A program made the translations under genes and the position numbers. DNA of 64,000 nucleotides from Tetracentron sinense (Eukaryota; Streptophyta; Magnoliopsida; Trochodendrales; Trochodendraceae): NCBI GenBank assembly GCA_015143295.1, contig CM026573.1:8213934-8277933 (forward strand), in the 5' to 3' direction. A model generated the notes under the pieces. It did no database searches and was not told where the DNA came from. It worked only from the letters and a program-made list of their open reading frames with translations. Shown piece by piece: positions 1,519 through 62,574 of this stretch. The stretch's first letter is position 1, and each line of letters opens with the position of its first letter.

Positions 1519-4500
1519 TCAAGTCTGAGAAGGTGGCCAGACTGTTCTTATGGCAAACGTGAACCCGCTTCCGCAGAAAATGTTGAAACCAGTATCGTTT
1601 TGAAGCTCATGTCCTAGGTTTATTACCTGTGGGCTGGTTTGATCATGTGTATTCCCCAAGCCAAGCTGTCCGTGTTCGCCCCAACCCCATGTCATTATTA
1701 CTCCATTCTCTGCAATCACAATACACACGTGCTAAAGTGAATCAGCACAACCTGCATTTTGTCCATAAAATCCAAAAAGGGGGGGGGGGGGGGAAGTGAC
1801 TTGCCTGTTACTAGAGCGGAGTGCTCTGCTCCGGCTGCAATGTGCATGACTTTTATCCCATTAAGACCAGGTACTTTGTCGAGAATGGGTTCCATGGAAT
1901 CTCCTGAAATATCAAACCATAAATCACTATACCATAGTACTGAATAAGATGGACAATTGGCCAAAATGAAGACAAGGGGTAACTACTAATTATGAGCATC
2001 ACATGACTGGTATGAATTTTGCAATCTAATTGCTAACTGAATTTAGTTTAAAGAGAAGAATTAAGATGTGTACTTATTTCATTATGTAATCTTTTTAACC
2101 TAATCACCCTCACAGAGAGCCATTGCACTCTTATCACTTGATAAAATCTAATCAACCAGCAAGAATTACCATTTCTGATGACCTTCAAGAGTTTTTCTCT
2201 TCAATTTAATATGCCTACACCAGAATATATCATAGCCACTCGAATCAATGAGTGTCATTTGGTCCTGGGTGATAAATACCTGTGTTTCTTCGCACCTCCT
2301 GGAGAATATATCAGTTGTAAAGAATTGATTGACCTTTTGAAGGACTAGTTAACAGGCCGGGCCGGTTAGAAGTACATAATCAGATGCTTATTAAATGAGG
2401 ATAGATCTGGTCTGATTTATAATAAACAGTATCTACCATCAATACACAAAATATCAGAACACTTGAAGCATGTGCGTGAGGTCAAGACCCTGCCATTCAA
2501 TGGGTAGCACCTGAGATACTACTAGTCAAAAACAAATTCAATACAACAATCATAATTTCATAACCATCAAACTATCTGATTCTTTATATGATCTGAAAAA
2601 AGAAAATATCGGCAAACAGTTACATATGACGTGATAGGATGGTTATGATCATGTTGGTTTCTTTACTAGATAATCTCATTGAAAAGAAACAAAACCATAC
2701 TAACGAAGTTCTCCGATTTTTTAAAAATATCGGAATAAATCGTAGTTTTTTCATCAAATGATTAATTCAGGAAGTATTTGCAACTTTTCAAAAAGTAGCG
2801 AATTTCGTGAACTAAAAGCGAATTATTCACAACTTTTTGAAACACTTGGACAAGAATATGACATATATTTGTTTATTCTTTTCATAGTAATCTTATTTTT
2901 ATTTCTTTTATCTTTCCCAACCCCTTACCCAATTTTTTCTTCCAAATTTTGCCCATTTTGTCCTAATTTTTCCATGGCCGAATAATTCCCAAACTCCAAC
3001 TTGGTGACTATGGACCCATCAAATGGTTGGTTTCTTTACCTAGATAATATCCTTGATCAGACCCTATCAAATGGTTGGTTCATACCTCATACACCCACTG
3101 TCCTGAAATTCCATTTATTGATGCTATTTAGAATCTAAAATATAGATTTATTACCCATTACATAAAACAGAGAAAAGAAGATAAAAAACACCCCTTCATT
3201 CTGACCAAGTGTAATGATGCCATGATCATCACTCTTCAGCACGGCTGCAAGTATCTAAGCTCATGACATCGCTTGCATGGTTCAAGTCATCTGTATCTTT
3301 AAAAAGTCATCTGTATCTTAAAAACCAAAATTAAGCAAATATGGGTGCTTACCATCTGAGCTAGTACATGGAGTCCGATGTACAGAGGGAGGCTGCTTCA
3401 AGCTCATTTTTTGAGGATCACTAAGCATCCCATGTTGGTTGCCACCGAGCATAAGCACTTCGTTGTCACCTTTGTAAGATACCAAAGAACGCTTTTAGCA
3501 AAGTCATACACCATTTTTATTTTTTTTTGGATAATACACCATTGTTAATCTGGGAATCCAGAGACATTTGGATAAAATGAAATTAAAAAAAAAAGAAGTA
3601 TACATTTACCTGTTAATAGTAAAGCGTGATTCCAGCCAAGAGCAACTTGAGAGAACCTCAAATGTGAAGATAAAATTTGGGGAAGGTAAGCATCTTTAGT
3701 GCCACTGAACCCTCTGCCCCAAGTGTACAGATGTCCATCAGCTGATGCAATGATGACGTAGAAATTAATGGAGAGAGAACAATTGATCTGGAATTGTTTA
3801 TGACACGTGAGGCCCCTCAAATCATCGAACCAGATGTTCAATTGATAGACCACCTGCTGAAGAAAGTATAGCCCAAAACCAGAATAGAGACTTCTCATTG
3901 CCCCATGTGCGAACTTTTCTTTCTCAGATCTTAACTATTTTTCCCCTAAGCTTTAGCAGATCCTCTATCAAGTCTTATTTTTGGGTAAACCCTATCCAAA
4001 ACTTTCACTGATTTCATGGTCTGGGTTGATGAGCTGGTGAGTGACATGTTTAGTGTCTGGGCACGGTTCATTGGAGATGATGAACCTCAGACCCTTCATA
4101 GGTTTTCGCTTAAAATAAACAGTTTCACTATTACTGACGCATTATGCAAAAAATAATTTGAGGAACTCACCAGACAGTGCAGCACTATGATCTCCATTTG
4201 CACCAATGCTAATTATCTCAACATCTTCAAATCCAAAAATAATTTGAGGAAGACTTAATGATTTGATCCTATCCTTGGAAATACCCAGTTGACCACGCTT
4301 TCCAGAACCGAATCCATAAACTTGATCTCCTGAAGGACCTGCATCAGAGTGAGATCAATTCATTAATGCTTGAGGTGCTTGAGAGTGATTTGGATCAAAC
4401 TTCCTTAACATTTAAATTTTGCTTTCCCTTTGTCCTTTTTTTTCTTTTTGGCTATGTAATGACTGCTAAAGGGAAAAAATAATAATAATAATAATAAAAG

Positions 4501-7500
4501 AAACTACACAAGGTGCAAAAATTCCTTACCAGATTAGCCAGAAATTAGGCAATAACATTTGACAATTAATGTACCTCGACCCTATTTATGTTTTAGAGTG
4601 ATCTCAATTCATTAATGCTTGAGAGTGATTGGGATCAAACTTCATTCAAATTTAAATTTGGCATTTCCTTTGTCATTTTTTTTTTCTTTCTTTTTTGGCT
4701 ATATGGTGACTGTTAAAGGAAAAAAAGAAAGAAAGAAAAGAAATTACACAAGGTGCAAAAATTCCTTACTAGTTACTAACTTACTATATAAAACATTGCC
4801 TACCATACATTAACGGTTTAGCAAAAAATTTGGCAAAATTCAAGCCATCCCTCTACAGTTTTGCATTTACCCTTCTTAGTTTCATCAATTGATAATACTT
4901 TATTGCAAGGTCGCTAAATCGTAATCGAATCGTAAAACCGTTTTAGGACCGATTCGAATCAAATCAGGATTCAAATCGTAAATCGTAAGATTCAATCCAT
5001 TTTTTTTAAAAAATAGTTTAAAAAATTACAAAATAAATCAGAAAAATTGAATAATCCATTATTCAAAAGATTCCATTCATATCTATTGATAAAAAAATTA
5101 GTAATGAACATTTCATTGCATACGCTATAAAAAACACGAATGAACTTCATAAAAAGAAATATAACCTCCAAATCATTAAAGACAAATCAATAAAAGTAAA
5201 CTCATATAATCATGTTGTACGAGTTCAAGTATCAAAAGATTTGTACAATTAAAAAAACAAATAAAATAAACTATCAAGTTCTCCCAGAGTCCAACTCTCC
5301 AACTCCATGCTCTTTCTTCTTCCTCCTTTCTTCTTTTTTCTTTTTCTTCTTTTTCTCGTTTCACAACAACAAAGAGAACCCTAATAGGGGTTTTGGCATG
5401 TCCGTAACAGAGGTTTTCTTGTTTCTTCACTCTTCCTAAAAGACATAAAGTATCTTAAGTATCGGTCGTATCGGTCCGTAACAGGGGTTTCGTGCTCGAA
5501 TCGCATAAATCATACAATTTAAATCGCAATCTAAATGGGATTTACCCAATTAAGATTTTCACCTGCGATTTGAATCGCCTAAGATTCGATCCAAATCGTA
5601 ACACTCGAATCACAAATCGCAAGGATTTAACAATCATGCTTCATCAGCAAATATCATACACCTCAGGACCTTCTCTTAATAGATATTCAATTCATCTATA
5701 TTAAATAAAAGATATGGACTCATAACTAACCCCTTATGTAAATCTATTATCACAAGGAGCTCATTTGTCTCACCCAAGGCTTTAAACTTTGATATCTTTT
5801 TTTTCTTTTTTGATCGGTAAACTTTGATATCTTAGGAAGTGAATATTTCGTGAAAATTTATGTCAGTCTGAAAATATTTTAAAATTTTTGGAAACCATTG
5901 AAACATTATGAAAACTATAGAAATATGAACGTGTATAGTTATTATAAGAAATGAAAAAATAAGTATAAATACACACTCATAACACATTGTGTAAGAAAAA
6001 ATAAGCATTTTGCAATAGGAAAAGTGAGAAAAATAACATGTGGCATAATTATCGTGCGTAGCTGAAACTTTAAAAGTCAAAGTTACACACAATAAATGGT
6101 CTGTAGTCAAGGTTACAAAGTAATTCATCCCAAAAAAGGAATAAAATATCAACATAACACATGAATCATACGACTTATATCCATATAGAGTTATGATGTG
6201 GCTTGAATATTGTTTTTCATTCTACAAATATTATTTTATTAAGAAAATATTTATAAATGCATAAAATAGACATGCATATGTTGATCTTAAGGTTCCCTGA
6301 TTCATTTAGTTAATTAAAAAATTATATAATTTATTATTAGAATAATATTTTTCATTCAAATAAACATATATTTTTTTTTTATTATGAATAACCCGCAAGA
6401 ACCGGGGGCGACTCAAGAGGAGGCGCCGCTGGCTCCAGAACCGGAACCTGCAGAAGTTCCCCAACATGAGGAACTTTGAAGGTCCATTCACACTCTAATT
6501 AAAGAGCAACTTCGGGGCAGTACAATAGTTTTTTTATCGATTCAATAAAATTTTTAATTATGATCGGTTTCATTCAAATAATAATAAAAAAAATTGTTTT
6601 TATATCAGTAAAATAGTTTAATAACAATAACCAACCCGTTGGAGTCCTTAGCAATATTTTAAATGGCGAAGGCATGAGGCAAGGCATTAGGAGTTAGGAC
6701 ATCTAGAGGCATAAGCCTTAAGCTTCATGTTCCCTCATTTTATAAATAAATGAAAAAATTAACCAAAAGTTTAAAAAAAATAAAAATAAAGTATATATAT
6801 GTATATATTATCATCAATGTCTTATCTCAAATACTTGGGGTCAACAACACGAATTTTCTCCTGGCATTCCATTCTATTAAAAGTTATAATTTCACTTAAA
6901 TCATGTGGCATTCCAATTCTATTAAAAGCTATAACTTCACTTAAATCATGAATTATCAAATCTTTCTACAACATATATGTGTGTGTGTGTGTGTGTGAAC
7001 TGCGAAGTACCATATAAATAATCCCACCATCATATAGAAGAGAAATAAACTTAAAAGCGGCAAACAAAAACTACAATTTAAATATACTTTTTGTTCATAT
7101 ACATATAAGGAATTGAGAGGCAGATGGTGTTCAGTTATTAGTTCATGTGGAAAAGTTTGAATCCCAACCAACAACTACAATGAAGTCACGAAAAAAATAA
7201 AATGAAAACAATAAATTTATTTACATATTTATGAGGCTAGAACCATATTGTTGGTAATGCATAAGGCGTACGCCTCAAGTATAAAGCGAGCATCAAAGCG
7301 TAAGGCGTGCACCTCATGTGAATCTCACACTTTAAGGCGTAAGCCTCATAGGATTTAAGCCTCAAGGTTGAGCCTCAAGGAGATTTTAAATTTTATTGAA
7401 AACTTAATCAAATGCGCAAAGATTAAAAATACGGTTGTTTTTGGGGATGTATCAGTTCCAACCAAAACCTATACGTATTTATTTCGGTTTCGGACAATAA

Positions 7501-26000: not shown

Positions 26001-29000
26001 GTAAACAAGTGCATAGATGGAGAGACATGGATGGTACCCTTGCCTGCAATTTGGGACATAGTACCATCGAGAATACGAACGTTGTCTCTCCCATAATAAA
26101 GGTGAATAAAGGTGGTATGAAGAAAATGGAAGACATACCAGTCATATGCTCGGAGGCTTCAGAATCAATGATCTAAGAGAGATGAGCATATGAGACAGAG
26201 ATATGTAGGGAAATGGTAGATGTACCTGATTGTGTAAAGGAGGAAGTAAATGTAGTGGAAGGAGTCGTTAAGTGGGACATGGCCCTACACATGGCTTCAA
26301 TTTCACAACAGATGAATTCCACATCATCTCTAGGAGCGACCTAGGACACTAGGGAGGGTGCAGGCTGCAGTTGTGGCAACATGGGCAGAAGAGTCGCCAA
26401 CTCCTCCTGGATGACAAGAATCACCTCCAAATCCTCATATGCAACCCCCTTTCTAGGTAAACCACCCATGCAACTGCCAACATTGATCACGGGTGTGGTG
26501 AGTCCGCCCACAATAATCACACTTCAACTTATTTTTGTCATGGATAGGTGTCATTCAAACTGATTCCCCCGACCGCTAGGACTTCCTCTTACACCTCCTC
26601 TGCCTCCACATTGGAAAGTGGAGGAAAGAGCAGACCTCTCAGGAGCGGTTACCATGCTAGGAGTCATCATATCTCGCCTCTGGATGTAGGCATAAACAAA
26701 ACTAGAGTGTTAAGAGGAGTATCCCAATCAAGGATCTATGATCAAGCATTCTCATACTCCTGAATCAATCCAGTAAAGAACTCAAAAATCCACATATGTT
26801 CAACCCATTTCTTGAAGGCAACAGCATCAACAGTACAACTGGGTTGGAAGTCGGAGTGGTGATCAAACTCTTCCAATTTCTCTCTCAACTTATTATAGTA
26901 CATGATCAAGGACATCTCCCCCTAACGAGTTTGGGAGATATCTCGTTGGAGTTTATAAAGCTGACCAAAGTTGCCTACTTTTGAGTAGGTTTGAGACCGA
27001 GTGTCTCATAAGGTGGCCGACGAAATCGCCGGAAAAAATATATATATATAGTTTATTTATTTTTAAATCAATAAAATTTTCTTTTGCAAGGAAACGGAAC
27101 ACCGTGCAGATAGAGATGTTTAAACCAAAGCTCTAGTACCAACTGTTAATCTTAACATTTGACATTAATGTCTTAAACATAATAGAGATTAGAGATCTAT
27201 CATCACCATATACATGAAAGTTTTTCCATCTTAATGAAGTACATGTGTTTAACCATTTTACCTTGGTTAAATGTCATAACGTCAATCCGAATGCGCCGGA
27301 AAAAATAGGTTGAATGTAGCCAATGCACAAGGTCTTTAACCCTCTCCTCTTCCTAGTTCCTCACCACACAACGAGTATGTGTATTCTATATGAGAAAATT
27401 AGAGAGAGTTGGGACATTACTCCCTTTATTTATAGACATTGAAAGAATCCTTCTCATTAAGGATTCTTCAATATTAGAGCTCTCTTAAAATATAATCATG
27501 CCTTATTAGAAAGGTGTATTATCTTCTTGCTAATAATATCACCTAGCAAAAGTTATTATTATTATAATTAGAACCTGCCAAGGGATTGACCATAGTGTAT
27601 GGCCACACAAAAGAAAATTTTCTAATAGTCTCCCACTTAGCCACACTATGTCATATAATCTCAATATCCCAATGTTAGCTAACTTTGATATGGCAATTCC
27701 TTTATCTAATTATAATTTCTACCTTTCAATAGTAAGTCCAGTACAGTGAAGCTACCAACACGGAATCAATGAAATCAATGCATCATCTCATTGACATAAG
27801 ACGACTCATGGATTACAGTATTAGCATCCCCACCGACATGGATATCCAACTAGCAAGATATTTTGAATAAACTACAAGTTTGCAAACTGAATGGTGACAT
27901 CATGCAAACCTTATGTATTTTAGGTCCTGCTTTAATTGTCGCTTACCGACATTTTTGCTTCTTAAACATCCATTCAAGCACAACAGATAATGGAACAGCA
28001 AATAAATCAACTTTATACTAGAATCAAACACATATCATAATCACTCTAACATCCACTATTTAAAGCTATCAAAATTCTCCACCATTCCCATGCATGCAAC
28101 ATGCTCCTCAAAGAGCTTGGGTGGCAAGCCTTTGATAATAGGGTCCGCCAACATGAGTGTAGTACTAATGTGCTCAACCGATATAATTTGATACTGAATT
28201 TTCCCTCTTACAACAAGAAATTTGATGTCTATATGTTTGGAACCACTGTCAGTCTTGTAGTTCTTTGGGAAAAACACTACAGCAAAATTATCGCACTTTA
28301 TTCTTAGTGGCTTAGAAATGTTATCAACACAAAGCCCTAAGATAAGACTTTTTAGCCATGCCGTATGACATGTTGTCTCATAAGATGCAACGAACTCTGC
28401 TTCCATAGTGGAAGAGGTTGTCAGCGATTGTTTGACACTTACATGACATAGGTCATCTTGCAAGCATAAAGATATAACCTGATGTGGACCTTCTACTGTG
28501 ACATCCAGTAGTTTTAGAATCAGAATAGGCAATTACCTCAAGGATGTATATCATTTTGTATGTGAGCATGTACTCTTTTGTCCCTTGTAAATAGCGAAAA
28601 ACTTTCTTACTTGCTTTCCAATGGTCCAAGCCTGGATTGTTTTGGTACCTACCAAGCATGCCAACTACATATGCTAAATCCAACCGAGTAGGCAAGTACA
28701 GACTTGTGCATAGATGAGACTCCCAACTACGGATGCATAGTAAATTGTCTTCATTTGTCTCATTTCCAGACCATTCTTGAAACCTTGAAGCAAAGGTGTA
28801 TAACCCACAAATAAGGCAATTGGATCCTAAAACCATAATTTGTCATTTCATTGGATATCCCGAAAGGTCAAAAGGATATAGACTTTATTGTCCAACTCAT
28901 AGTACCAGGAGGATTATCGAGACTAGATATGTCAAATTCTTTGAGGATGGTGACCACAGTGGGAGTGTTGAGCCTAGGAATTTCACTTTTGAAGAAAATC

Positions 29001-32000
29001 TGGTTATAATTCCTATGCCCATAATCCAAGAAAGAGTGATCCCAACACCACCTGTCGTAGAGGATGTTGGTGTACCTGAGGCTATACCTGAGGAAACACT
29101 CCACATTGCAGAATCTTGGCTCCTACGGTGCCTATCAAAGATCCACCATTGTGTAGATCACAGAGGGTTAAGAGGTCAGCCATCTCTAAAGAGTATGTTG
29201 TCTACCTGAATGAGAGTGATTATGACATTGGGAAGGAAATATATCTTCTTTGTTTTGACCAAGCCATAATAAGCAATAATTCAACTCAATGGCTTGAAGC
29301 CATGAAGAATGAGTTGGAATCAATGAAACACAACTCTGTCTGGGATCTTTGCGAGTAACCTAAAGGGGAACCTGTAGGGATTGGCCATAGTTCCTCACAA
29401 CACAATGAAAGTTTGCTAATATCTTTTGCTAGATGATATTATTAACAAGAAGATAATGCACATTTCTAATTAAGGCATAATTATATTTTAAGAGAGTTCT
29501 AATATTGAAGAATCCTTAATGGGAAGGATTCTTTCAATGTCTATAAATAAAGGGAGAAATGTCCTAACTCATTCTCTAACTTTCTCATATAGAATACACA
29601 TACCCATTGTGTGGTGAGGAACTAGAAAGAGAAGAGGATTGAAAACCTTGTGCATCGTTTACATTCAACCTATTTTTCCCGGCACATTCGGATTGGCGTT
29701 ATAACATTTAACCAAGGTAAAATGGTTGAACACGTATTCTTCATTGAGATGGAAAAATTTCATATATATGGTGATGATAGATCTCTAATCTCTATTATGT
29801 TTAAGAGATTAATGTCGAATGTTTAGATTATTAGGGGTGGGTTGGATCATGGAGGTATTTTGTATGAAAATCTGATTATATATTTTTATTGCTATGATTG
29901 ATTGAGGGATGAATGAAATATTGTAAGTTATATCAATATTACTCAATCATAATTCATAACATAGTTATCAAAGCGTGAAGTGAAAACGAAAAGCAAGCCG
30001 AAAGCGAAAGCGAAAAGGGAAAGGCACAAAAATTCCTAAAGAAGCAAGAAGTGATAAATGAGATATAGGCGTCTCATTCCCATTATATTAGTATGAGTCA
30101 ATCATACCTTAGATTTTATCCTACATAAATAATGATGGAGAAGTAGGTGTCTTGGGTTCCAATCCAATAGTATTTGCTCATGGTCTATACCCTAAGTAAT
30201 AGATTCGAGTCTATCTCATCACTTACTACATACATATACCTCCTTGACCACTTAATGGGATGTAATGGAAGCGAGCTTCCTAGGAAGCGAGTGTGGGAAA
30301 CGAGCTTCCTGGGAAGCAAGCACCTACCCTATATATAGCATGCATGCAATACATTGTCATCAACGCACATCTTTGCACCTTTCCCATTGCATTTTTATGT
30401 GCATTGTTGTGCATCACTATTATTATAATATTTCCTAAAGTTCCATTTAAAATTTTCATATTGTTTCTATTTTTTTCTTTGACATGCAATATATTCTCCA
30501 CAAAACAATATATCCACCAATATATCTTTTTCCTAATGTGCGACATATCCCTCGATATCGACATTCAGAACATTGCTTCAAATTTTAGCCTCTAGCAAAC
30601 TCTTTTATGTATCTTTTATTGTTTTTATCCGTCTTATGCAATCTATAACTGGGGTCAATGACACTATTCACATTTTTCACCTTATGTGAAGCGCTTATCA
30701 ATTTCTAGAAGATATTTCTTCAGTATTGATTATTGAACACCAAGAAATTTACTATGATCTTCTTGCTCTGCAGTTTCAATCCTAGCTTTTTTATAAAATA
30801 TATGTACTAGCAAACATACAATTCGTAAACAAATTTTACAACCAATCACTAAGTTCAAGAACATAACAATTTTTTCAAACCTTTGCACTTACTACAGCCT
30901 ACAGGTAGACAGATATACATATCTCATAACTTATAAAAAGGAGGAGGAGGATTTGCTCGGTTCCGCTTCCATCTTTGATGAAACTCAGATCAAGCATGCA
31001 AAACAACCGAGTGATGTGCAAAAGCGCTGTACAAGCTGTGCCAGCTGACTACACATCCAGGCTTGGAATAATATGGTATTGACAAACAAATCCCACAATC
31101 CAGGCATCTGCACTAGGTTTCCCCAAAAATGCAAGTCCACTTGATTGGGTCACATAATCTCATTCTAGATTCCACTACTTGTAGTCGCGAAAAAATTATT
31201 AACCCATGCTATTAGAGCCTTAGAGGTGATAGTCTACTGAATAACTAAATCTCAAGTTTATGCATGAATGGAGAAATTTTAATATTTTGGCTCTTTAGAT
31301 TCCAGAACAAAGTTTCTTTTTAACAATGAATATGTGCAAGATTAAATGACATGTAATATCAGTGCTCTACAGATCTACCCGAGTACAACTTGTACACATG
31401 AGAAGATGATCTGAACTTTCATTCCATCTTAAAAAAGAAATGACGAGGGGGCAAAAAATAATGATTTGATCAGATGATAATGGAATAAGTTGAGAGACAA
31501 TACAATAACATTACCTTGCCAGAAGCATTCCGAACAGGTGATAGATGAAGAAGATTCCAAAATGAATTTTTGTCCTTCCTGAAATTCAAGTATGGCAATG
31601 CAGTCGAGAAAATAGTTGGTTCAAAAATTAAAAATTAAAATCCTCTTCTTCTGAGACATAATGGGGAGTGTAGTGTAGAATGAACCTGTAATTTAAGATA
31701 CGTACTGTACAGGCTTGCTCAGTTCGGACGCTTTCTTCTATCTGTAGAACAACAAAGGACAAAAATATCTAATCAAAGGAATTTCCATTCCACCAATTTA
31801 ATCACCACATTTCAAAACAAAAATATAGGCAAACCTAAAAACAGATCAGGTATCTACCTGGAATATATCCTCAGCATCTGTGTCCGGTCCATTTAAAAGT
31901 CCACAATTATATCCCACCACTTCGTGTCTATCATACCCTATAGAGAAAAAAAAGTGGGGGAGGAGGGGGGCTGTTACTAGGAAGAGTTGACTTCATAACT

Positions 32001-50045: not shown

Positions 50046-52437
50046 ACTCCCCCTTGCTCAATCTCTCCAAGATACAAGCAACTTGCTCACCAATGTCCTC
50101 GGGGAGGCATCATCTCTTTCCTCTCATCTTCATAGCCATCCATGTCCTCCCCATGTGCATAACAAACAGATGTATCAGCCGAGATGTAGCAACCACACGT
50201 AGTCTTAGTAATCAATGAAATGCATAGCCAAGTGATCTGTCATAGGATCGATCTCTTAACAAGCTCAAATCCTGTGCGAGGTAAATAAGGATCTTTACAA
50301 GTCAAACTTGAAATGTTGAAGTCTACAGAAATTCTTCCTATCCCATCCAATAATAAGTCCTATCACTAAATTTTGGTTAGATTAAAGACTTTGCCTCACA
50401 TGGTAATACTGGCCATTGAATCAAATTGAACCTTCGAATGAAAATTTATAATTGAATTGGCTATTTCAGATTAGTATACTCATTTTAATAAATAGAAAAC
50501 CACATGCGCACCGGAACTCAAGTGTACGGATTTCGGGGCAAGGGCGGCGGGGTGGGGCATGACAGAGTTGGTATTTCCAGCCCGTGGACCAGCTTTGTGG
50601 TCAGTACATATGAATATCGAGAAGCAGACACTCCACGAGCTGCATGATTCATTGTTCTCAAACTGAGAAGAGACTCTGGTTGAGAAAGTTACTTTAAAAT
50701 GAGTAAAAAATTGAAATTTTAGTGACAGTCCCTAAAGGACCCAACGAATTCCTAATTAGAATTAGGAGATCCCTTCTAATTGATTCTTTGTGCCTAATCC
50801 TCTTGACCCAAGTGACTGCTTGCAGATTAAAAGGCTAAGGAAGGGAATTTCGGAAGCAAAATAAATGAAACAACCTCCTACTAGAGCAGGAAACTCACAA
50901 ATAAACTACTCTGAACGATGGATACTGCCAGGACGACTTCTCCACCACCCTGAGGAGGAGCTCCACTACTCTCAATTTTCAACTCCAATCCTCCTGAAAG
51001 AACTACAAAACGCTTAAGCATATGTAGGCAATTTATTGGATAATACTGACATGGATTCTTGGAATCATTTGTAATTCTAGTAGACAACACATTATGTTGT
51101 ACTTTAGCTGATACCTCTGTGAGATGCGTGTATATATTTCCTACACAAGTTAGAGAAATGCTAGCCCCAATCGCAGATTTCGAAGCTCTCATGGTGGTAG
51201 CATCGCTACTTATACCTATTACCTTGAGAACTGGTATAAATCATCATTCTTCCTTATGAAAATTCTGATTTTTTAAATATGTTGAAGGGGGGTAGCAACA
51301 ACACGTCTTGCACCCACCCTGAGAGTTTGGAAAAAAATTGAATTGTGCAACTGAGGCTAGCACTCCTCCAGAGTCAATATGTGAATCACAATCAATAATG
51401 TCACGCATGAAGTGTGGTAGTAGTTCGGCAGAGTGATTTCTAAGGCAGCGTTTGGCAAATCTACAAAATAGAGCTTATTGACTTATTAAAAAGAAAAATA
51501 AGATCTTATGTACGTATAAGACTGTTTGGTCATGCAATGATTAGGTGTCTTTACAAAAATAGACGACTTTAGACAATAAGATTTTAAAATATAAGCTAAC
51601 TGCAGTTGGCTTATACTTTAAGATGTAATTTTGCTTATCAGAGTATAGATCTATTTGGAGCACATGCACCATGAAGCTCCTCAGATTCAAAATTAGGTGT
51701 ACAAAGAACATATAAACTGTCAAACCGAGAGTTTCAGAGCATTTACTTCAGAACTTCAAATACCATTTTGCAATAACTAGTGAGACTCGTATTTTCTTTG
51801 TTCATGATTCTGTTGAACCCCATTAAGTCAAGTAATGCTTCAACTCCATCTCAAAAAAAATAAAAAAAAATCTCTGTTTTAGTTCAATCTAACAAACCCC
51901 ACTGTCTGAAAAAACAAAATTTGATATTAAAATCATCCCAACACCACCACCAGTGACTAACACAGACAAACAAGCCGATGCAGGTACAGTAACAAAGGGA
52001 CATCGAGAGAAACTCCATTTAATGGAATTATAATAGCAAAAGACCTTGCAAGGTAAAGAAAAACTAGAATAAACATTAGAAATGGAGACGAAAAGGTCTC
52101 ACCTTATTGAAATGAGCTTTTTCCAAAAATTCAAAACTCGCAAATTGTTCTTCAATTTCGTTCCTGCAATATTAGGCCAATCAAAAAATAAAAAAAAACA
52201 AACTAAACCCTAATAAAGGAGGTTTAGTAATACTATTACTACCTAATACCGGTTTCGTTGATATCGAGTACTTCTCGACACTGGTGTGGACGGAGACCGG
52301 GCCAAGTATCGTCGGGTCGGATATCCCCCCGATGAGGTCCAGAATTACTGTGAGAGGGTTGAGAGGAGCAGCCGTTGCCTCAAGTATCAAGTGCTTGCTA
52401 CTCTTTCTTTTGAACTGGAAGTTATGTCAAAATAGCA

Positions 52438-52758
52438 AGGAACCAAATCCTCTACGGTAAATCCGGTTATCGCCCCTAAACCCACCACGTGTTCCTTTTG
52501 ACATCCCTTGACTGTGGTTAAGATTCACTCATCTTAGGGTTCACCCACCCATCATTGGTTTTTCGAAAAAATATTACTTTTTTTTTAATATTAACAAATA
52601 TTTTTAATATTAAAATATTTAAAAAGGAATTCATATTTTTTTTCTAAAAACTAAGGATGGGCAGGTGAATCTTAACCACAGTTAAGGGATGTCAAAAGAG
52701 AACGTGACTGCCTCAACAATGATAACCGGATTTGACATAGAGGATTTGTAGCTGGTTC
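52438..52758. mobile_element. Fold-back MITE, 320 bp, well-preserved termini
   Basis: The left arm ggaaccaaatcctctacggt, aaatccggttatcg and cgtgttccttttgacatcccttg pairs with the right arm ending ataaccggatttgacatagaggatttgtagctggttcc. Termini are best seen here: GGAACCA...AATCCTCTA. It lies between the RCL1 relic and the left end of the 8.5-kb Mutator-like element. Confidence 0.8.
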
Positions 52759-52765
52759 CTAATAG

Positions 52766-53918
52766 TTGGCTTGTCTCTGGCGAAACCAGAAGAGCCCTCT
52801 CGGGTGTCCATACATCGACACTACTTTGGGCGCCAAAACGAAAACGAGAAACGGTAGACCCTCGCCGTTAACGTTTACTAACTTTTAAAATATTAATATT
52901 TTATCTCAATATCAGGAACAACGCATCTTCCTACCTTCTGTTTGAACAGACCATTTGGAGTTTTGTTTGGTGTTTTTGGTCACAGAGCTTTCTTCTTCAT
53001 CTCACCCTCCAGCAACAAGGGTTTGCGACCATTCCTTTCAACTTGACTGTTGAGGAATTTTGAGATCTAACGAGTGGAGCGTCTCTTCTTCACTCTCCGG
53101 CAACCAAGGGTTTGCAGGTTGAAACGACCACAAAGGTATCATCACCGTAGATTCTTGCGGTGTCTTGGCCTCCGGTGACCACGAAGAGGAGTGTTTCGAA
53201 GGTATCATCCTTCTCCTACCCCGTAATCTTTTTTGGGTTGTTTGGCCATGATTTAGCTTATCCCCTACCCTATTTTCTATTTGGGGATTTGATTTGGGGT
53301 TTTTTCCACCAAATTATTCAGGGGTTTGATTTGGCAGTGATGCTTCATTTTTCTTATTTGAGTTCTTGGAGACCTAATAACTCTGCCAGTCAATTTTTCT
53401 TTCATGCAAACTTCAAATTAGAGATGTATAGTCCATAGTGGAAGAACTTGAATCATTATGTTAGATTCCTTATTTTCAGTTAGTCTTTGTGCACCTATTT
53501 CCCACTTTTACTCATTGTTTAGTCAAGTGAGACCAATCTACTCCATACCAGTAAGGAACAACGCTCAAAAGTGAAACCTAATACCTTATGAAGGGATTTA
53601 TGTTAACAAGTGAATGATCCACATACTTGAATGAGTTCCTACTAGGTGTAAATTTATCATGATATAACGACAACCATTTCTAAGCATCAAATTAGGGAAG
53701 CATCATACAGGGACCTAACAAGAAATGAGACCTCGTCTAAATTAATGTCCATGGGGAAGGTCCAATGTAAACAATGAAGAGTAGCACATTAGGTCAGATC
53801 AGTTCATTTTTCAAATATCTTAGCAAATGGGTTCAATTAAATAGACTCGAATATGCAAATATATGGGATTCAAACATCAAATGCAAAACCTTTCGAGCCT
53901 CTCATCATAACCCCCACT
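52766..53918 (+). repeat. Left inverted arm of the 8.5-kb element
   Basis: Begins ttggcttgtctctggcgaaa and ends ctcatcataacccccact. A plus-strand open frame of 92 codons (53160-53438) lies in the arm and has a counterpart in the other arm, so it is copied by the repeat, not selected. Confidence 0.9.
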
Positions 53919-54019
53919 TTCGAAGTTTGATATTTGTTTTGATTGATGTTGTTCTTCATAGAAGAGCTTTTATCAGGTGTAGCTTTCATTAAATTGTCAA
54001 ATTTGCACTGAATTACCAC

Positions 54020-54070
54020 AGAAACCATGTATAGAGAATGCAGTTCTTCTGCCAAGTAAATCAATTTCCT
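54020..54070 (+). repeat. Short direct repeat of the FAR1-type gene's exon end
   Basis: The stretch accatgtatagagaatgc.gttcttctgccaag, then taaatcaatttcctt, recurs at 55278-55326 with one or two changes. The first copy lies 100 bases inside the left arm, upstream of the FAR1-type gene. Confidence 0.85.
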
Positions 54071-54240
54071 TAATCTTAAATCTGAATATATATATATATA
54101 TATATGTGTGTGCCAAATGAATTTCACATTAGTCTTAGCCATATTATTTTTTCTTTGCATTATCGGTAAATTATTTTATTAATCTCTATTGACCTCTATT
54201 GGTTTTGCCCCTTAATATTTTATATCATTTGAAGTTCAGG

Positions 54241-56320
54241 GAAGAGCACAATACACATTTCAGAGAGGCCAAATTTGTAATTGGGTTGAAGGCAAAAGTT
54301 TCAAGTGGGGTGGTGGGTTGGTTCACGTTTGAATACATTGATATGGATCATACTATAGTGGGTAGTCCTCGTGAAGAAGATAATAGTGGATTGCAAGTAT
54401 CACACAGGTTATCATTTGAGACAGCAGATGATGACTATAACTATGCTAGTGGATCTGGGTGCAACAATAAAGATGCGTCAAATAGCAACGAAACTCCAGG
54501 TCCAAAGATTGGAATGAAATTTGAGTCAAAGGATCAGACATATGATTTCTACAATGAATATGTAAGAAGGACTGGCTTTAGTATTCGAAATGATTGGAAA
54601 AACAAAGATAAAGCTGGTGTCTTGAGACTTAGAAAACTTTATTGTTCGCGAGAAGGTCTTAAGAAATAAGATAAGCGAGCAGACATGGAGAACCAGGGAG
54701 ATCCTATTAGATGTGATTATAAGACTTACATTATGATTGCCCTGCAGCCAAATGCACAATATAAGAAATTCAGAGTCAATTAGAGCACAATCATCATTGT
54801 ACACCAATAAAGTCTTACATGTATGGGTCACGGAGGAGAGTAACTAAGACTCAAGTTGTTAAAGCTAATATGGCAAGGAGTGTGGGTATACTCGCGAAGA
54901 AGACATATGACCCCTTATGACTACAGAAGTAGGAGGGTCTGAAAATGTTAGTTTTCTGCACATGGACATTAAAAATTATATTTATTCCAAACGAATGAGG
55001 TCAATGGAAATGGGAGATGCAGGAGTTTTGTTACAGTATTTTTAGAAGATGGTTGTAGAAGATCCAAGTTTTGTATATTCCATACAACTTGATGCCGAAG
55101 ATCAAATCACAAACTTTTTTTGGGCAGACTATAGAATGGTGAATGACTACAATGCATTTGGTGATGTGGTCAGTTTTGATACAACTTATAGGACAAATAA
55201 TTTGGCACGACCATTTGCACTATTTGTAGGAGTTAATCATCATAAGCAGTCAATTTTATTTGGAGCGGCATTAATGCGAACCATGTATAGAGAATGCACT
55301 TCTTCTGCCAAGTAAATCAATTTCCTTGCCACCCACTGGTCCTATTATGCATTCGATACCGACATGTCCGAGTGATCAAGGAATACAGGTACTAAAATTG
55401 AGTTTGTATTATAAATCATAGTTAATTTATTGACAAGTTTAAGTCTCATTAATTTTTAATTTTGATGTGCTAAATAGGAGTTCCAACAGAATGTTGGACC
55501 AAGTCAACCTATGTACCAACAAGTTCAGCTGAATCATGTGAACCCATACATGTACCAACAAGTGGAGTTCAATCAAAGACCTGCCCCATATGCGTACCAA
55601 CAGTTTTAAGGCCCTCCAATGTATTCTTTAATGTATGGGCAGCCACAACTACACCACAACCAGAGCATGTATCAGCATTTACAACAATCCATCTGTGGGT
55701 CATCTCAGGTAACTGTTAATTAGCGTTTATAAAATGTCTGATTTTATCTATTTAAACTACCAAGTGGTGAGGGTGTCAATTTCGAACAACATGCTTGGCT
55801 CCTATACTCTTGGAGCTTATTTTATCTATTTCTTTAATGTATGGGCAATAAACATTTGGCATGTTGTAATTTGTAAACAAATTAGGAAATCCATCTCATA
55901 AGATGACTGTACTGCAAGATTTGAGGACACTCACTCAAACCTGGTTAATAGAGGCATTGTCAATAACCTTGTGTTAATGTTATTGTCCAGTTAGTTACTT
56001 TGAAATGGAAGGCTTCTCAATCATTCTCTAAAAATATTGTATTGCCTTCTTAGATATGATAATGTATTTATTAAAGTTGGTGAGATTTAATGAGATCAGA
56101 ATAGCTAATCGCTCTCTTTTTTAGGGCTATACTATATACCATAAGTTATATGACTTCACCTTTACTTCTGAAAATATACTGTAACATTTTCTTTGTATGT
56201 TGTCTCTATATTTTGCAGGAATCGTCATTTGGTGTGGGGAATAGCTCACAGGGAGAGTGTCAAGATCTTACTAATCAAATGAGCACTAAGTATCCGCAAC
56301 TCATATACATTTTCAATTAA
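54241..56320 (+). pseudogene. FAR1/FRS-type (Mutator-like transposase-derived) gene, internally deleted
   Basis: The first part (54199-54669) encodes a FAR1 DNA-binding domain: MKFESKDQTYDFYNEYVRR, TGFSIRNDWKNKDKAGVLRL, RKLYCSREG. Next come FAR1-domain remnants through 54950 and then MULE-domain sequence (55049-55277): DPSFVYSIQLDAEDQITNFF, DVVSFDTTYRTN, FALFVGVNHHKQSILFGAAL, with the first catalytic Asp in FDTTY. It then jumps to a C-terminal tail: MYQQVQLNHVNPYMYQQ (about 55490-55560), QSMYQHLQQ (about 55660), and a last exon at 56220-56320 (ESSFGVGNSSQGE). The rest of the catalytic core and the SWIM zinc finger are missing, and there are stops. FHY3/FAR1 proteins are domesticated MULE transposases, so this could be the element's own transposase or a captured FRS gene. 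Confidence 0.8.
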
Positions 56321-56939
56321 TGTTTAAAACCCCTTTATTTGATGTTTCAACTCATATTCATAGTGAAAAGTTATGGTGACGGCTAATAAATGTTTGTGGT
56401 TGGTGTAGTTATGATAATTGAAGATGATGGCAGGAGACTGAAGATGGGAGAAGGAATATGATGAGGTTGGGCCAAAGTTTGCTGAAGGGGAGGAAGATGA
56501 AGGTGATGAGTACTAGGTATATGTGGTACTAATGTTGACATCACAATGATAATCGTATTAAGACATATGTTTTGATAGTACTCAGATTTCTTAGAAGGTT
56601 AGACATATGTTTTGATAATTGTATTGACAATAGTACTCGGATGTTTTACTAATCGTATTGACATGTGTTAGCATGGAAATTTTCTCTAATTCTTATTGTT
56701 TTGCATGTCATGTGAGAAGAAGGCTGTTCATTTTCTTCTCGGTCTCCTAGGCTTATTGGATTTAAGGGGAAATGGTGGACTATGTTGTTGTGTTAACCAT
56801 TTCAGGATGTGAATTTGCATTTATTATTCGACTGATCAAATTGTTCAGTAGCCTTTGAGAGTTCCCTACAAGGTTAGAGACATGGGATTTTCAAGCTGAA
56901 CGGATGTTGAATTATACATAAAAAAGTGCTTTTTAAGTG

Positions 56940-58020
56940 ATGGCCAATTCGTTTATCAGATGTTGCTTTTCAAGTCTGCCAAATGTTTTTCAGCTGACTC
57001 TGCTACTGCTCATTGTGAACTTGTTGCTCTTGCTTCTGAATCTGCAACCAATATCAAAACGATCGCCTCTTTTACCCACGAAGAGTACATGCTTGAGAGA
57101 GCCAAGATCTCTCTGGAAAAACCAATGAGGAGCCGTACAAAGAGTGTCAAATATGGGATTATTCAAGGTTTGTCTCTTTGCCTATGGAACATTGCACATG
57201 TTGTTGCTTTGTGGTACACAACGGTTTTAATCCACAGGAACCAAGCCACCTTTTAGGATGGAATAAGATCATACCAAATTCATGAACCTATATTACCAAA
57301 TTGGGTCCCCTTTTTACCATCTTTTTGCCAAAAATAAATACTTTAATTCTCTCTTTTCTAAGGACCATCCATATTTTCTTCATACAAGAACCGAGTTTCA
57401 CTTCCATAAATCCCTAGTAGCATGAGTGAAAAATATATGCGGGTGTTAAGCACAGTATACATAACGCGAACCACATATCAACCAGAGTGCCAAACAAGCT
57501 ATCCTCCTCGAGGGAGGGCAAAAATATTTATCTTAGCAGTGCAAATTTGTTCTTTTGACAAAACAATATTATTTGTTCTTCTAAACTTATGTGCAAATTT
57601 GTTTGAGCTAATTATGCATAATTGAAATTTGAAACACCTTAAAGATTTACCTCTAAAGAGAGATCGGCATCAGCAGTTGGAAGAAGATATTCGATTCCGT
57701 TTTTCAAATCCTAAGAGGATAAGAGGAAGAATCGATTTTAAACAAGCCGGTTTTAACTACCCAATGAGGCCAGAAGTGACTGTGCTACACAATTTCAGTG
57801 TACAAGTTGAAGCTGAATCAAAGGTGGCACTAGTCGAGTCAAGTGGAGCAGGAAAATCCTCTATTTTGGTCCTTGTGCTCAGATTCTATGACCCACAACA
57901 CGGAAGGATACTGATAGATGGGAAGGATATTAGAGACTATAACCTGAGATGGTTGAGAATCCAGATAGGGTTGGTGCAACAATAGCCGCTTCTCTTTAGT
58001 TCCTCAATTAGAGACAACAA
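56940..58020 (+). pseudogene. Captured ABCB6/ABCB20-type transporter fragment
   Basis: About 56990-57290 encodes ELVALASESATNIKTIASF, EKPMRSRTKSVKYGIIQGLS, LCLWNIAHVVALWYTTVLI and then, past a stop, DGIRSYQI. This is the second membrane domain of plant ABCB6/20 proteins. After an intron-like gap, 57629-57985 encodes GRIDFKQAGFNYPMRPEVTV and a Walker A region SSGAGKSS followed by RFYDPQHGRILIDGKDIRDY and IGLVQQ, then past a stop [11 protein letters not shown]. That is the start of the second nucleotide-binding domain. The signature and Walker B motifs are absent. ABCB6 and ABCB20 are auxin efflux carriers in Arabidopsis. The retained gap suggests capture of genomic DNA, not cDNA. Confidence 0.85.
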
Positions 58021-58065
58021 AAGATGTTGGATTTCCAAAGGCTAATACATGGTCTCTCTCTTTTT

Positions 58066-58275
58066 GTTTCAAATGGATTTCCAAAGGCTCCATTCCCAAA
58101 TGGATGGAAAGGCAATGCTGGACTTTATGCAGTTGGGTTCACATGGAGAGGGCTCTTTGGTGCATCTTCAGATGCCATGATAATAGCACAAGATATCTGC
58201 AAAGTCTGGAAAGAGGAAACAAAGCAGAAAAAGCAGTCCATCGCATGCCACCGGCAATGCATTTCACTGTTCTGA
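58066..58275 (+). pseudogene. Captured 3' end of a YUCCA flavin monooxygenase gene
   Basis: Encodes [54 protein letters not shown] and ends CHRQCISLF, then stop. Plant YUCCA proteins end with FPNGWKGxxGLYxVGFTRRGLxGASxDAxxIAQDI. The KEETKQKK...HRRCIS tail points to the YUC3/5/7/8/9 group. Only about the last 70 codons are present, starting right after the ABCB piece. YUCCAs convert indole-3-pyruvate to auxin. Without the FAD and NADPH sites this piece has no activity. Confidence 0.87.
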
Positions 58276-58762
58276 TCTTGGAGTTACTACTACAACTACT
58301 TACACCCCCACCACCTACACTTCTCATTGGAACCAAATGAAACGTTCAACTTGCAATTCCAGATTTTTGAACGCTAAACATTTATTGGAACCAAATAAGA
58401 AGTAAATAGCAAATAAGTGAACACCCACTACCAATATCTAAGAAAAACATATTCTAAAATTGAAATCTGACCAGGGTGGAAGTCTCTCTTATGTGATTAA
58501 GACTAAAACAAGGTAAATTTAAAGAAAGTGCAACAATGGCCTGACAGCCAAAACTCAAATATAACAGAGATGCTAGCATGACTGCATTAACATAGTTAAA
58601 TTATCAGAAGGATGCATGGGATTAGATGGAGTGAATAGTGCCATGGGCACCAATATCTCTAAGTACTCCAATGCATAGCCATCTTTGTATAGAGATGCTA
58701 TCATAACTTAGCAGTACAACCTGTAAACAAGAAAAGAAAGTTGTCTATGAACATGTCCAAGC

Positions 58763-59395
58763 CTAATGGAAGGCGGTTGCACTCCCTACATAAAACAAAA
58801 TACCAACAAAACCAATAACAAAACTAAATAAAATCTGTTTAAGAATAGAGACTTCGGATTCCGTTTTTGCAAACTGAATTTGAAAGCAGCCAAAATCCGA
58901 TTCCATTCTTCCCGTTCGCTCTTCTAAGCATGACTCCTTTCTTGCAAATTGATCTTGTAAGCATTTCACTTCAGATTCGATTCTTGCAATTCGCTCTTCT
59001 AAGCATGATTCCATTCTTACAATTTGATCTTCTAAGCATGATTCCATTCTTGCAAGTCGACCTTCTAAGAGGAGAACTTCATCCGTGATGCTTGATTTAG
59101 AGCTAGTAGAAGGGTGTCTCAATGGTTTGACATTTTCATCACACCACTAGATAAAATTGCTATATTGTATGCCCTGCTAGATCATATTAACAAGTCATTA
59201 TTATTCGTTTCATAATGGATCTTAATAATAAATAAATAATACATTAATAACTTACATTTTTTCCAGAACATGAGTAGAAATCTCTCATAGGATTGACAGC
59301 TGTTTTTGAAGTCCTTACCACACAAAGACCTGCCCCACATTTACAGTTCTTTGTTGGCCAGGTCTAGTAATTACTTTTGGAAGATGAAGACGTCA
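58763..59395 (-). pseudogene. GRF zinc finger / coiled-coil / membrane-tail gene, near-intact
   Basis: Exon 1 (about 59395-59263) encodes MTSSSSK, then after one stop CKCGAGLCVVRTSKTAVNPM and RDFYSCSGKN, matching the GRF-type zinc finger (CxCG..a..tS.t..NPgR.Fy.C). The donor atgtaagtt and an acceptor atctag join to exon 2 (about 59150-58763) beginning WCDENVKPLRHPS. Then come tandem units such as LARMESCLEDQ, IVRMESCLEER, IARIESEVKCLQDQ and FARKESCLEER, a long coiled coil, and a final hydrophobic helix (ILFSFVIGFVGILFYVG). This layout (GRF finger, coiled coil, tail anchor) is common in plant genomes and often seen near MULEs. One stop in exon 1 suggests it is dead; otherwise it is well preserved. 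Function unknown. Confidence 0.72.
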
Positions 59396-59779
59396 TTCTC
59401 AACTACTACTTACAAAACCAAAAGTCTCCATTTCAAATTAAAATATGAAAGCTAGAACTAAGCTAATAAACTAGATATTTCCCCAATATCAAGCATTGAC
59501 AGAAAGCAAGATACAATAAATTTTCAGCTAAACAAACGTGAAATCACCACTGTAACAAAACAACTTCAAATATCTTCTATCATATGTAGAATGAACCCAC
59601 ACATATATGAAACAAATAAATCGCAAGTATGTATTCTCTCAAACTAGTTGCGGATATTTAGAAGCAAACAAATCAAGTACTCCCAAATTAAAGTATATAC
59701 ATATAATACTTGACACGTGTGTAATAGACAACCAGTGTTTCTTTAGGGTTAGTTGTATGGTATACGATAATTTTTGGAA

Positions 59780-59990
59780 AAGCAGTGATTAGTAGACCCT
59801 GGGGTTAAGGTCTGTTTCTTATCTTATCTCGTGTCCTCGTGTCCCTTTTAACACTCATTTAACTTTGGTTAAGCTTAAATAAATTAAAGTTAAGATTTCG
59901 GTTTGCCTTTTTCTAAAAAACCAAATTTGGAATAAGAAGTATCTTAACCAATAAGGGCCGGCCATTCTTTACATAGTGAAAACCACTAGT
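59780..59990. mobile_element. Fold-back MITE copy inside the 8.5-kb element
   Basis: Contains gtgtcccttttaacactcat and ttggttaagc with a degraded inverted partner ending ataagggccggcc. The flanking agtgattagtagacc matches the outer copy near 49005 (agtgattagaagacc). Confidence 0.55.
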
Positions 59991-60140
59991 ATTTTAAATA
60001 CTTTCCTTTTGGAATAAGAAGTATGACAAAAAGGGAGACCATTGAGTAAGGTAGAGAGAAGAGAGTAAAACTTGGTAGCAATTGGTAGAGGGCAGTAGCA
60101 ATAATGACTCAATATAAAATTTTGGTAGAGGATTAGATAG

Positions 60141-61306
60141 AGTGGGGGTTATGATGAGAGGCTCGAAAGGTTTTGCATTTGATGTTTGAATCCCATATAT
60201 TTGCATATTCGAGTATATTTAATTGAACCCATTTGCTGAGATATGTGAAAAATGAGCTGATCTGAACTAATGTGCTACTCTTCATTGTTTACATTGGACC
60301 TTCCCCATGGACATTAATTTAGACGAGGTCTCATTTCTTGTTAGGTCCCTGTATGATGCTTCCCTAATTTGATGCTTAGAAATGGTTGCCGTTATATCAT
60401 GATAAATTTACACCTAGTAGGAACTCATTCAAGTATATGGATCATTCACTTGTTAACATAAATCCCTTTATAAGGTATTAGGTTTCACTTTTGAGCGTTG
60501 TTCCTTACTGGTGTGGAATAGATCAGTCTCACTTGACTAAACAATGAGTAAAAATGGGAAATAGGTGCACAGAGACTAACTGAAAATAAGGAATCTAACA
60601 TAATGATTCAAGTTCTTCCACTATGGACTATACATCTTTAATTTGAAATTTGCATGAAAGAAAAATTGACTGGCAGAGTTATTAGGTCTCCAAGAACTCA
60701 AATAAGAAAAATGAAGCATCACGGCCAAATCAAACCCCTGAATAATCTGGCAGAAAAAACCCCAAATCAAACCCCCAAATAGAAAATAAGGTAGGGGATA
60801 AGCTAAATCATGGCCAAACAACCGAAAAAAAAAATTATGGGGTAGGAGAAGGATGGTACCTTCGAAAAACTCCTCTTCGTGGTCGCCGGAGGCCGAGACA
60901 CCGCAAGAATCTACGGTAATGATACCTTCGTGGTCGTTTCAACCTGCAAACCCTTGGTTGCCGAAGAGTGAAGAAGAGACGCTCCACTTGTTAGATCTCA
61001 AAATTCCTTAGCAGTCAAGTTGAAAGGAATGGTCGCAAACCCTTTTTGCCGGAGGGTGAGGTGAAGAAGAAAGCTCTGTGACCAAAATCACCAAACAAAA
61101 CCCTAAATGGTCTGTTCAAACAGAAGGCAGGAAGATGCGTAGTTCCTGATACTGAAATAAAATATTAATATTTTAAAAGTTAGTAAACATTAACGGCGAG
61201 GGTCTACCGTTTCTCTTTTTCGTTTTGGCGCCCAAAGTAGTGCCACACGACACACGATGTATGGACACCCGGGAGGGCTCTTCTGGTTTCGCTGGAAACA
61301 AGCCAA
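60141..61306 (-). repeat. Right inverted arm of the 8.5-kb element
   Basis: Reverse complement of 52766-53918 with a few percent differences and a short extra patch near 61243-61252. Begins agtgggggttatgatgagag and ends aaacaagccaa. Confidence 0.9.
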
Positions 61307-61963
61307 AGCCTAGCAAAGCAGAGTGCTGGTACAAGAACACCAATGAATGATTGGACACTAAACTTAAAACAACAATGCTATGTCCACTTTCCGATTGTCC
61401 AGTCTTCTTATTTCTAAACAAAAAGACAAAATAGCATGACATTGTGTCTCATCATTTTTATTTTGCTTTTTTGTTTAAAATTAAGAAAGTCAATCAAAGA
61501 GTGGACAACTAGAAAGTAGATGTAACATTGTTCAAACTTAAAATTACTTCTAGACATTGGCTGAAAATGCTGACAATCCAAACTGTTTGAGTTATACTAA
61601 ACTCACTATGAGCCTTAATTTCACGTCATACTAAATAAATTGAAATAAATTGTCTTTAAATGTGAGCAATGTCCATATTCAAAAAGGGGTATCTAAGTAC
61701 TCATTACAACTTACAATTACCTAAGAACAATTTGAATAATGAGGAGATGTATTTGGAATTGTGATTGATACAAGGGTGTATCCAATCACAATTACTTAAA
61801 CCAATAAAAAAAATCTCAAGATTATTTCTCTCAATCTCTAAATATCATCTTTGATAAGTCTTACCTTATTTAAATTACTATATATATCTACCCGTCTCTT
61901 CCGCAAGTGGTTGGGTGTGACCTCTTTGTTAAGGGAGGCATAGGGATCCAGTCCTTGGGTGCA
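61307..61963. other. Spacer, nothing recognised
   Basis: AT-rich DNA with no domain, repeat pair or RNA gene that I can support. Confidence 0.5.
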
Positions 61964-62574
61964 AGGGCGGGGAGGGGCCATGGCCCCCCCAAAATTTTTG
62001 GGGTCCCTTGTTATTTTGGTATGAATTAGTGGACCCCTTAACAATTTTTAATTTTTTTTAGTGTAATGCCCCCCCCCCCAAATTTTTGTTTTATATATAT
62101 AGAGGCCCCCTAATTTTTTTTGTCATATATATAGTGGGCCCTCCAATGGAGTCCGGTTATGCCCTTTAGGTCACCACATATCTCTATTGACATCCCTTAG
62201 ACTCATTAACTATGGTTAAAATTCACTTACTCTCAGGGTTCACCTACTTATCCTTGGTTTTTAGAATAAAATATTAATTTTTTTAACCTTAGTAGTTAGT
62301 GAATTTTAACTAGGGTTTGTAAAAAAATTGATATTTTTTGAAAAAACCAAGGAAAGGTGGGGTGAATCTTAACCACGGTTAAGGGGTATCAATAGGACAC
62401 TTAGCGGCCTCAATGACATTACCAGGAAAAAAATTCTCAAAATATAAAAAATACCCCAAATTTTTTTTTCTCGGGAGCTACGCCCCCGAACCCCCAAGTT
62501 TCATATCTTCAAATCCATTAATTTTTTATACATGTATTTCAGCCCCCCCATGAAAAATTCCTGACTCCGCCCTA
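61964..62574. mobile_element. hAT-like element, GGGCGGAG termini, with nested fold-back MITE
   Basis: Ends agggcggggaggggcca and aaaaattcctgactccgccct resemble a common plant DNA-element terminus. The flanks tgggtgca and tgggtgat agree at 6 of 8 bases. C-runs and tatata tracts fill the left half. A fold-back MITE interrupts it at about 62150-62405. Confidence 0.55.
62150..62405. mobile_element. Fold-back MITE, TTAACCGTGGTTAAG family
   Basis: The left arm (attgacatcccttagac, actatggttaaaattcac) pairs with a right arm (gtgaatcttaaccacggtta, aggggtatcaataggacac). Same family as 39265-39515. Confidence 0.7.

Follow-up and report, generated by a model that had tools for sequence, protein, structure and literature searches.

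How did pieces of several genes come to lie between two long inverted arms on C23 of Tetracentron sinense? The question is raised by a stretch of 64,000 nucleotides (the window, C23:8213934-8277933 of a 1.16-Gb genome), in which a Mutator-like element (MULE) of ~8.5 kb is bounded by inverted arms at 52766-53918 and 60141-61306. We consider it very probable that gap repair with repeated template switching, acting on a MULE with two convergent genes (one for a transposase, one for a GRF zinc-finger protein), left a decayed element with a cargo from five donors. The pieces, their donor places and order, and the family backbone around them are as follows, in window positions.

52766-53918, plus strand: left arm (long terminal inverted repeat), without the outermost GGCT/GGCC common to most relatives
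54232-55276, plus strand: 5' coding part of the MULE transposase with FAR1 and the start of the MULE domain, broken; part of the family backbone, matched at 84-88% by the 11 next-best loci (Pfam)
55279-55327, plus strand: 49-bp filler at the transposase deletion junction, a 98% copy of 54023-54071 (self-comparison, family copies)
55324-55718, plus strand: 3' part of the transposase, backbone; other copies resume here ~1.3 kb later (family copies)
56185-56717, plus strand: backbone downstream of the transposase (C10, C4, C8 and other copies, each covering part)
56725-56827, plus strand: captured piece 1, matching C8:898404-898506 at 95%, upstream of an open reading frame that we take to be kinase-like
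56828-56872, plus strand: captured piece 2, matching C19:14270904-14270948 at 96%, antisense to a leucine-rich repeat (LRR) receptor-kinase reading frame
56971-57280, plus strand: captured piece 3a, ABCB exon, 93% to C16:13113798-13114110, with one TAG stop and a 3-bp deletion
57273-57688, plus strand: captured piece 4, 90% to C9:1817423-1817851, antisense to a starch-synthase frame 41 bp away
57700-58019, plus strand: captured piece 3b, the same ABCB exon resumed, 93% to C16:13113344-13113663, with one TAG stop
58028-58043, plus strand: 16-bp filler, identical to 58074-58089 of the YUCCA piece (repeat comparison)
58072-58330, plus strand: captured piece 5, the 3' end of a YUCCA-type coding sequence, matching C8:17961987-17962241 at 93%
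58345-58635, plus strand: low-copy piece of unassigned nature, 80% to C7:2771084-2771358
58750-59586, minus strand: GRF zinc-ribbon gene remnant, a family accessory gene and not a capture by the window copy (family copies, Pfam)
59603-61310, no strand: right-end block common to a C7 copy, 95% to C7:36343204-36344914
60141-61310, minus strand: right arm, with its true end at 61310 (AGCC), 4 bp past the end given by an earlier reading of the sequence alone

The cargo, at 56.7-58.3 kb, consists of five fragments, each with its own donor locus at 90-96% identity and the donors spread over four chromosomes, as found by searching 56529-58757 against the genome (all 23 candidates scored; 24 matches, the query itself among them). 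Fragments of host genes thus lie between MULE arms with all five donors elsewhere, as is expected of a Pack-MULE, and the mosaic as a whole is single-copy, not being seen elsewhere in the genome. The donors were labelled from Pfam matches of reading frames at the donor loci (ABC transporter, FMO-like monooxygenase, starch synthase, LRR kinase); at the YUCCA donor it is an exon further upstream that is FMO-like, the captured one having no family match, and the donor frame at C8:898 kb gave no accepted Pfam match. The subfamily names ABCB and YUCCA are presumed, being taken over from the earlier reading. Within the window itself, ABC_membrane is matched at 56900-57256 (7.7e-12) and ABC_tran at 57626-57985 (2e-12). 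The Kimura two-parameter distances (K80) between captured pieces and donors, 0.047-0.073, all fall in one range.

The junctions give a closer view of the assembly. Both ABCB pieces fall within a single open reading frame at the donor, and the C9 piece sits in place of 134 bp of the exon, with ~4 bp in common at the ABCB-C9 join (8 bp by BLAST ends); an intron between the ABCB pieces was considered and rejected, the donor being one open frame across the gap. The first two captured pieces abut. At the end of the YUCCA piece, 13 bp (58326-58338) recur at 58384-58396.

The transposase carries a junction of the same kind. A deletion of 1.28-1.31 kb takes the window from 55276 to 55324 where the C10 and C4 copies continue, and the end of the 49-bp filler at this place overlaps the resumed transposase by 4 bp (CCTT). 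Pfam, run on stop-to-stop frames, recognized FAR1 at 54193-54669 (4.2e-6, 27.8 bits, slightly below the 28.1 cut-off) and MULE at 55046-55315 (3e-9) in the window, FAR1 (4.4e-23) and MULE (1e-7) in a C15 relative, and SWIM (1.3e-8) in the C4 copy, in keeping with a remnant of a FAR1/MULE/SWIM-type transposase; four of four window pieces with X at stops gave no families, nor did the C4 piece read in one frame. At further loci, 54232-55276 has partial or weaker matches of 75-89% (40 of 166 candidates scored). The longest stop-to-stop frame in the element is 158 codons. A Pack-MULE, being non-autonomous, has no transposase gene of its own; here no working one is left, owing to the 1.3-kb deletion and stops, yet remnants persist at 54232-56528, and for this reason we name the element a Pack-MULE-like deletion derivative.

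The sequence-only reading had described two ~1.15-kb inverted arms about 95% alike, and arm against arm indeed gives 94.4% identity over 1166 aligned columns (E=0), with substitutions alone at 52 of 1153 sites (K80 0.047). It was also right in placing FAR1/MULE, ABCB, YUCCA and GRF sequence between the arms, as seen from Pfam matches and, for YUCCA, from the 93% donor match, and in joining ABCB to YUCCA within ~50 bases (ABCB ends at 58019, YUCCA starts at 58072). Its fusion of at least four genes stands for ABCB and YUCCA, which are captured; FAR1/MULE and GRF as captured genes were rejected, since both are the element family's own and recur in relatives. It missed three further captured pieces and the 49-bp filler. 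The compound Pack-MULE that it proposed is borne out as a MULE-type element with host-gene fragments, but looks like a deletion derivative of a single transposase-bearing MULE.

That the element belongs to a family is evident from its relatives. The search for other arm copies suggested by the earlier reading succeeded: the first 501 bases have at least 44 matches in the genome (40 of 237 candidates scored), and two-ended copies, with long terminal inverted repeats in common as in MULEs, were found on C4, C11, C2 and C20 besides the window. Typical termini of relatives are GGCTTTGG or GGCCTTGG, to which the right end of the window copy conforms (61307-61310 = AGCC). MULEs typically have target duplications of 8-11 bp; the 9-bp duplications sought at copy edges are perfect at the C4 copy (CCTTGTTGA) and the C2 copy (CCTTAAATG), that is, at two of the four other two-ended copies. 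In C10 and C4 the backbone runs in the order transposase, spacer (1.3 kb in C10, 1.7 kb in C4), GRF gene and terminal repeat. The C4 element has an additional internal copy of the terminal tip at C4:35240862, reminiscent of MULEs with multiple terminal repeats. At C23:1609400-1610400 (positions 303-646), the terminal sequence stands in tandem as two copies 296 bp apart, perhaps a short derivative resembling a miniature inverted-repeat transposable element (MITE), and 15 similar tips occur elsewhere at 90-92%.

The GRF gene recurs with the transposase in a manner hard to reconcile with capture by the window copy. In the window, the Pfam match to a GRF zinc ribbon covers 59247-59363 of the minus strand (7.1e-7, 29.7 bits), and the copy at C23:17.6 Mb reaches 38.4 bits, against a cut-off of 25.9 for both; beyond the ribbon the predicted product looks like a coiled coil with a hydrophobic tail. 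After merging, at least 41 transposase loci and at least 40 GRF loci were obtained among the matches listed. A GRF locus lies within 15 kb of ten of the 41 listed transposase loci, that of the window among them, against a chance expectation of 0.04 pairs, and all ten pairs share the same relative orientation with GRF 4.4-10.1 kb downstream; the other 31 have no listed GRF partner. A genome search with PF06839, in which 150 of 203 candidates were scored, found 10 places, but neither the window nor any site less than 15 kb from a listed transposase was among them; an intron within the GRF domain would probably keep the MULE copies below what such a search can pick up. A selection test on five of seven copies (window and C10 left out) gave omega of 0.27-0.34 wherever the C13 copy was one of the pair (four pairs, 18 to 54 codons) and, among closer copies, 0.48, 0.59, 0.93, 2.40 (twice) and one undefined value; since these values are mixed and four of the five copies used carry an early stop or shift, selection on the gene is only suggested.

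From these observations we infer that the structure arose when a break was mended by gap repair with template switching, in one or few steps. The starting point would have been a MULE with long inverted arms and, between them, a transposase gene and a GRF zinc-finger gene convergent to it. This MULE would have suffered at least one internal double-strand break, at excision or replication. Repair would then have copied ectopic templates, switching repeatedly. In the transposase it would have lost 1.3 kb and left the 49-bp filler from the element itself, and the transposase-GRF interval, 1.3-1.7 kb in relatives, would have become 2.2 kb with sequence from the ABCB, starch-synthase-adjacent, YUCCA-type and LRR-kinase loci and one further locus. 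This course is favoured because relatives share termini and backbone order and include copies with transposase domains, because two of the four other two-ended copies have 9-bp duplications, and because the donors are unlinked, the ABCB exon is interrupted, microhomology or filler stands at the joins, and donor divergences lie in one range.

Several observations weigh against this account or blur it. The left end of the window copy has ATAG in place of the terminal four bases, and no 9-bp target duplication flanks this copy; for both reasons its own transposition is at most presumed. The C11 copy has no 9-bp duplication either, and that of C20 is imperfect (7 of 9, with shifts). In the cargo, a search of the genome with 56860-56990 returned only itself for the 98 bp at 56873-56970, and 58331-58749 has no clear source. 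A 12-bp match between 57693-57704 and 58857-58868 is suggestive only and proves nothing, since exact repeats of 12 bp are not unusual in this sequence: 40 rows were obtained, a good many of them reciprocal or overlapping, where shuffling gave 5.2 on average and 15 at most. A single repair event is also indistinguishable from several.

Other origins were weighed against the same data. The retention of donor order and strand by the two ABCB pieces could point to segmental duplication of a region where these genes are neighbours, but the donors lie on C16, C9, C19 and two C8 places 17 Mb apart, no other place in the genome holds the ABCB-YUCCA join (all 11 candidates scored), and among the candidates scored for the near flanks there are only the flanks themselves and high-copy repeats; with donors unlinked, this origin is rejected within this assembly, assuming the assembly is correct here, and we give it almost no credence. 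Several small transposons or retrocopies that had inserted independently and lay nested in an old MULE would accord with the high-copy repeat at 59781-59932, which lies between stretches (59658-59780 and 59947-60131) resembling C19:31037204-31038258 at 93% and 81% (40 of 2001 candidates scored for the repeat). They would also require pieces with the same edges elsewhere, of which none was seen in the cargo and join searches, and the junction alignments revealed no terminal repeats or duplications bordering the captured pieces, whose borders abut or hold filler or microhomology; the C9 piece, moreover, is unlikely to be a retrocopy because it lies outside the neighbouring exon frame. Such a history is very unlikely.

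Whether the element acts on the genes it sampled is a separate matter. Its long arms, and the sense order of the captured ABCB and YUCCA exons on a single strand, might suggest an expressed chimeric gene or a source of hairpin small RNA acting on ABCB or YUCCA genes. However, the ABCB and YUCCA pieces are in different reading frames and each ABCB piece carries a TAG stop, and an arm hairpin would not target the donors because the captured pieces lie outside the arms. We therefore regard such a role as improbable, and judged from its sequence the element is decayed and probably non-coding and immobile.

The age of the insertion is less easily read. A K80 of 0.047 would correspond to a few million years at usual plant rates, and together with the short open frames it makes the earlier description of the element as recent doubtful. 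The two arms and the C7 copy are nearly equidistant (K80 0.047, 0.050 and 0.055), and the block 59603-60140 differs from C7 by a K80 of merely 0.031, so that arm divergence provides no clean date for the insertion. The C7 copy has other flanks, and its second end was not found within the 9.9 kb examined on that side; as it shares the right-end block, that part would predate the split of the two copies. The C2 relative (C2:41786800-41793200, positions 505-5848) is a young family member of 5.3 kb whose arms of ~1.87 kb are 98.9% alike, and the family therefore moved there later than the arm divergence of the window copy suggests. The empty site proposed as a test was not found in this genome, the searches with the left flank (40 of 4238 candidates scored) and the right flank (40 of 5012 candidates scored) returning mostly repeat copies. 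These flanking repeats are a palindromic, high-copy, MITE-like repeat at 52437-52748, 17 bp outside the left arm (main matches 74-84%), and another at 61965-62300 (main matches 84-94%). Elsewhere in the window, 27147-27558 and 29417-29830 form a 415-bp inverted pair, 91% alike.

The origin proposed here is a known kind of event. As in Pack-MULEs of rice and other plants (PMC13317346, PMC8277862), MULE termini enclose unlinked host-gene fragments with donors on other chromosomes; unlike them, the window element retains remnants of the family transposase and accessory gene, and its mosaic is single-copy and without target duplication. Derivatives of maize MuDR with internal deletions, attributed to gap repair that was interrupted (Hsia and Schnable 1996, cited in PMC10288884), share the internal transposase deletion, the junction here holding filler DNA, but the window element has another gap with DNA from five other loci. 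Captured pieces, template switching and edge microhomology are likewise described for Pack-TIR elements formed by gap filling or FoSTeST (PMC8277862), which are animal cases as opposed to the plant element here. Sequence acquisition by Pack-MULEs was deemed not yet understood in 2012 (PMC3310237), and in 2021 the gap-filling and FoSTeST models were considered worth exploring for plant Pack-MULEs (PMC8277862).

What is less usual in the window element is a readable switch path and the GRF gene of the family. With five segments of located donors and legible junctions, the path of switching can be followed closely. Additional open reading frames are described in MULEs of plant groups (mudrB, vanB/vanC, mutB and antisense PMD; PMC6446971), and here too an extra gene lies beside the transposase on the opposite strand and is kept across copies; it differs in being a GRF zinc ribbon, a term absent from the main text of that paper, and term searches of the open-licence literature found no connection between GRF and MULEs. 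The GRF gene may be an undescribed accessory gene of this family. It is possible, although we hold this only tentatively, that this MULE clade has a standing second gene, convergent to the transposase and encoding a GRF zinc-ribbon protein with a coiled-coil-like stretch and hydrophobic tail, which selection maintains for a role in transposition or in evading host silencing, like mudrB or vanC. If the GRF gene is indeed conserved, plant MULEs would gain a new accessory gene.

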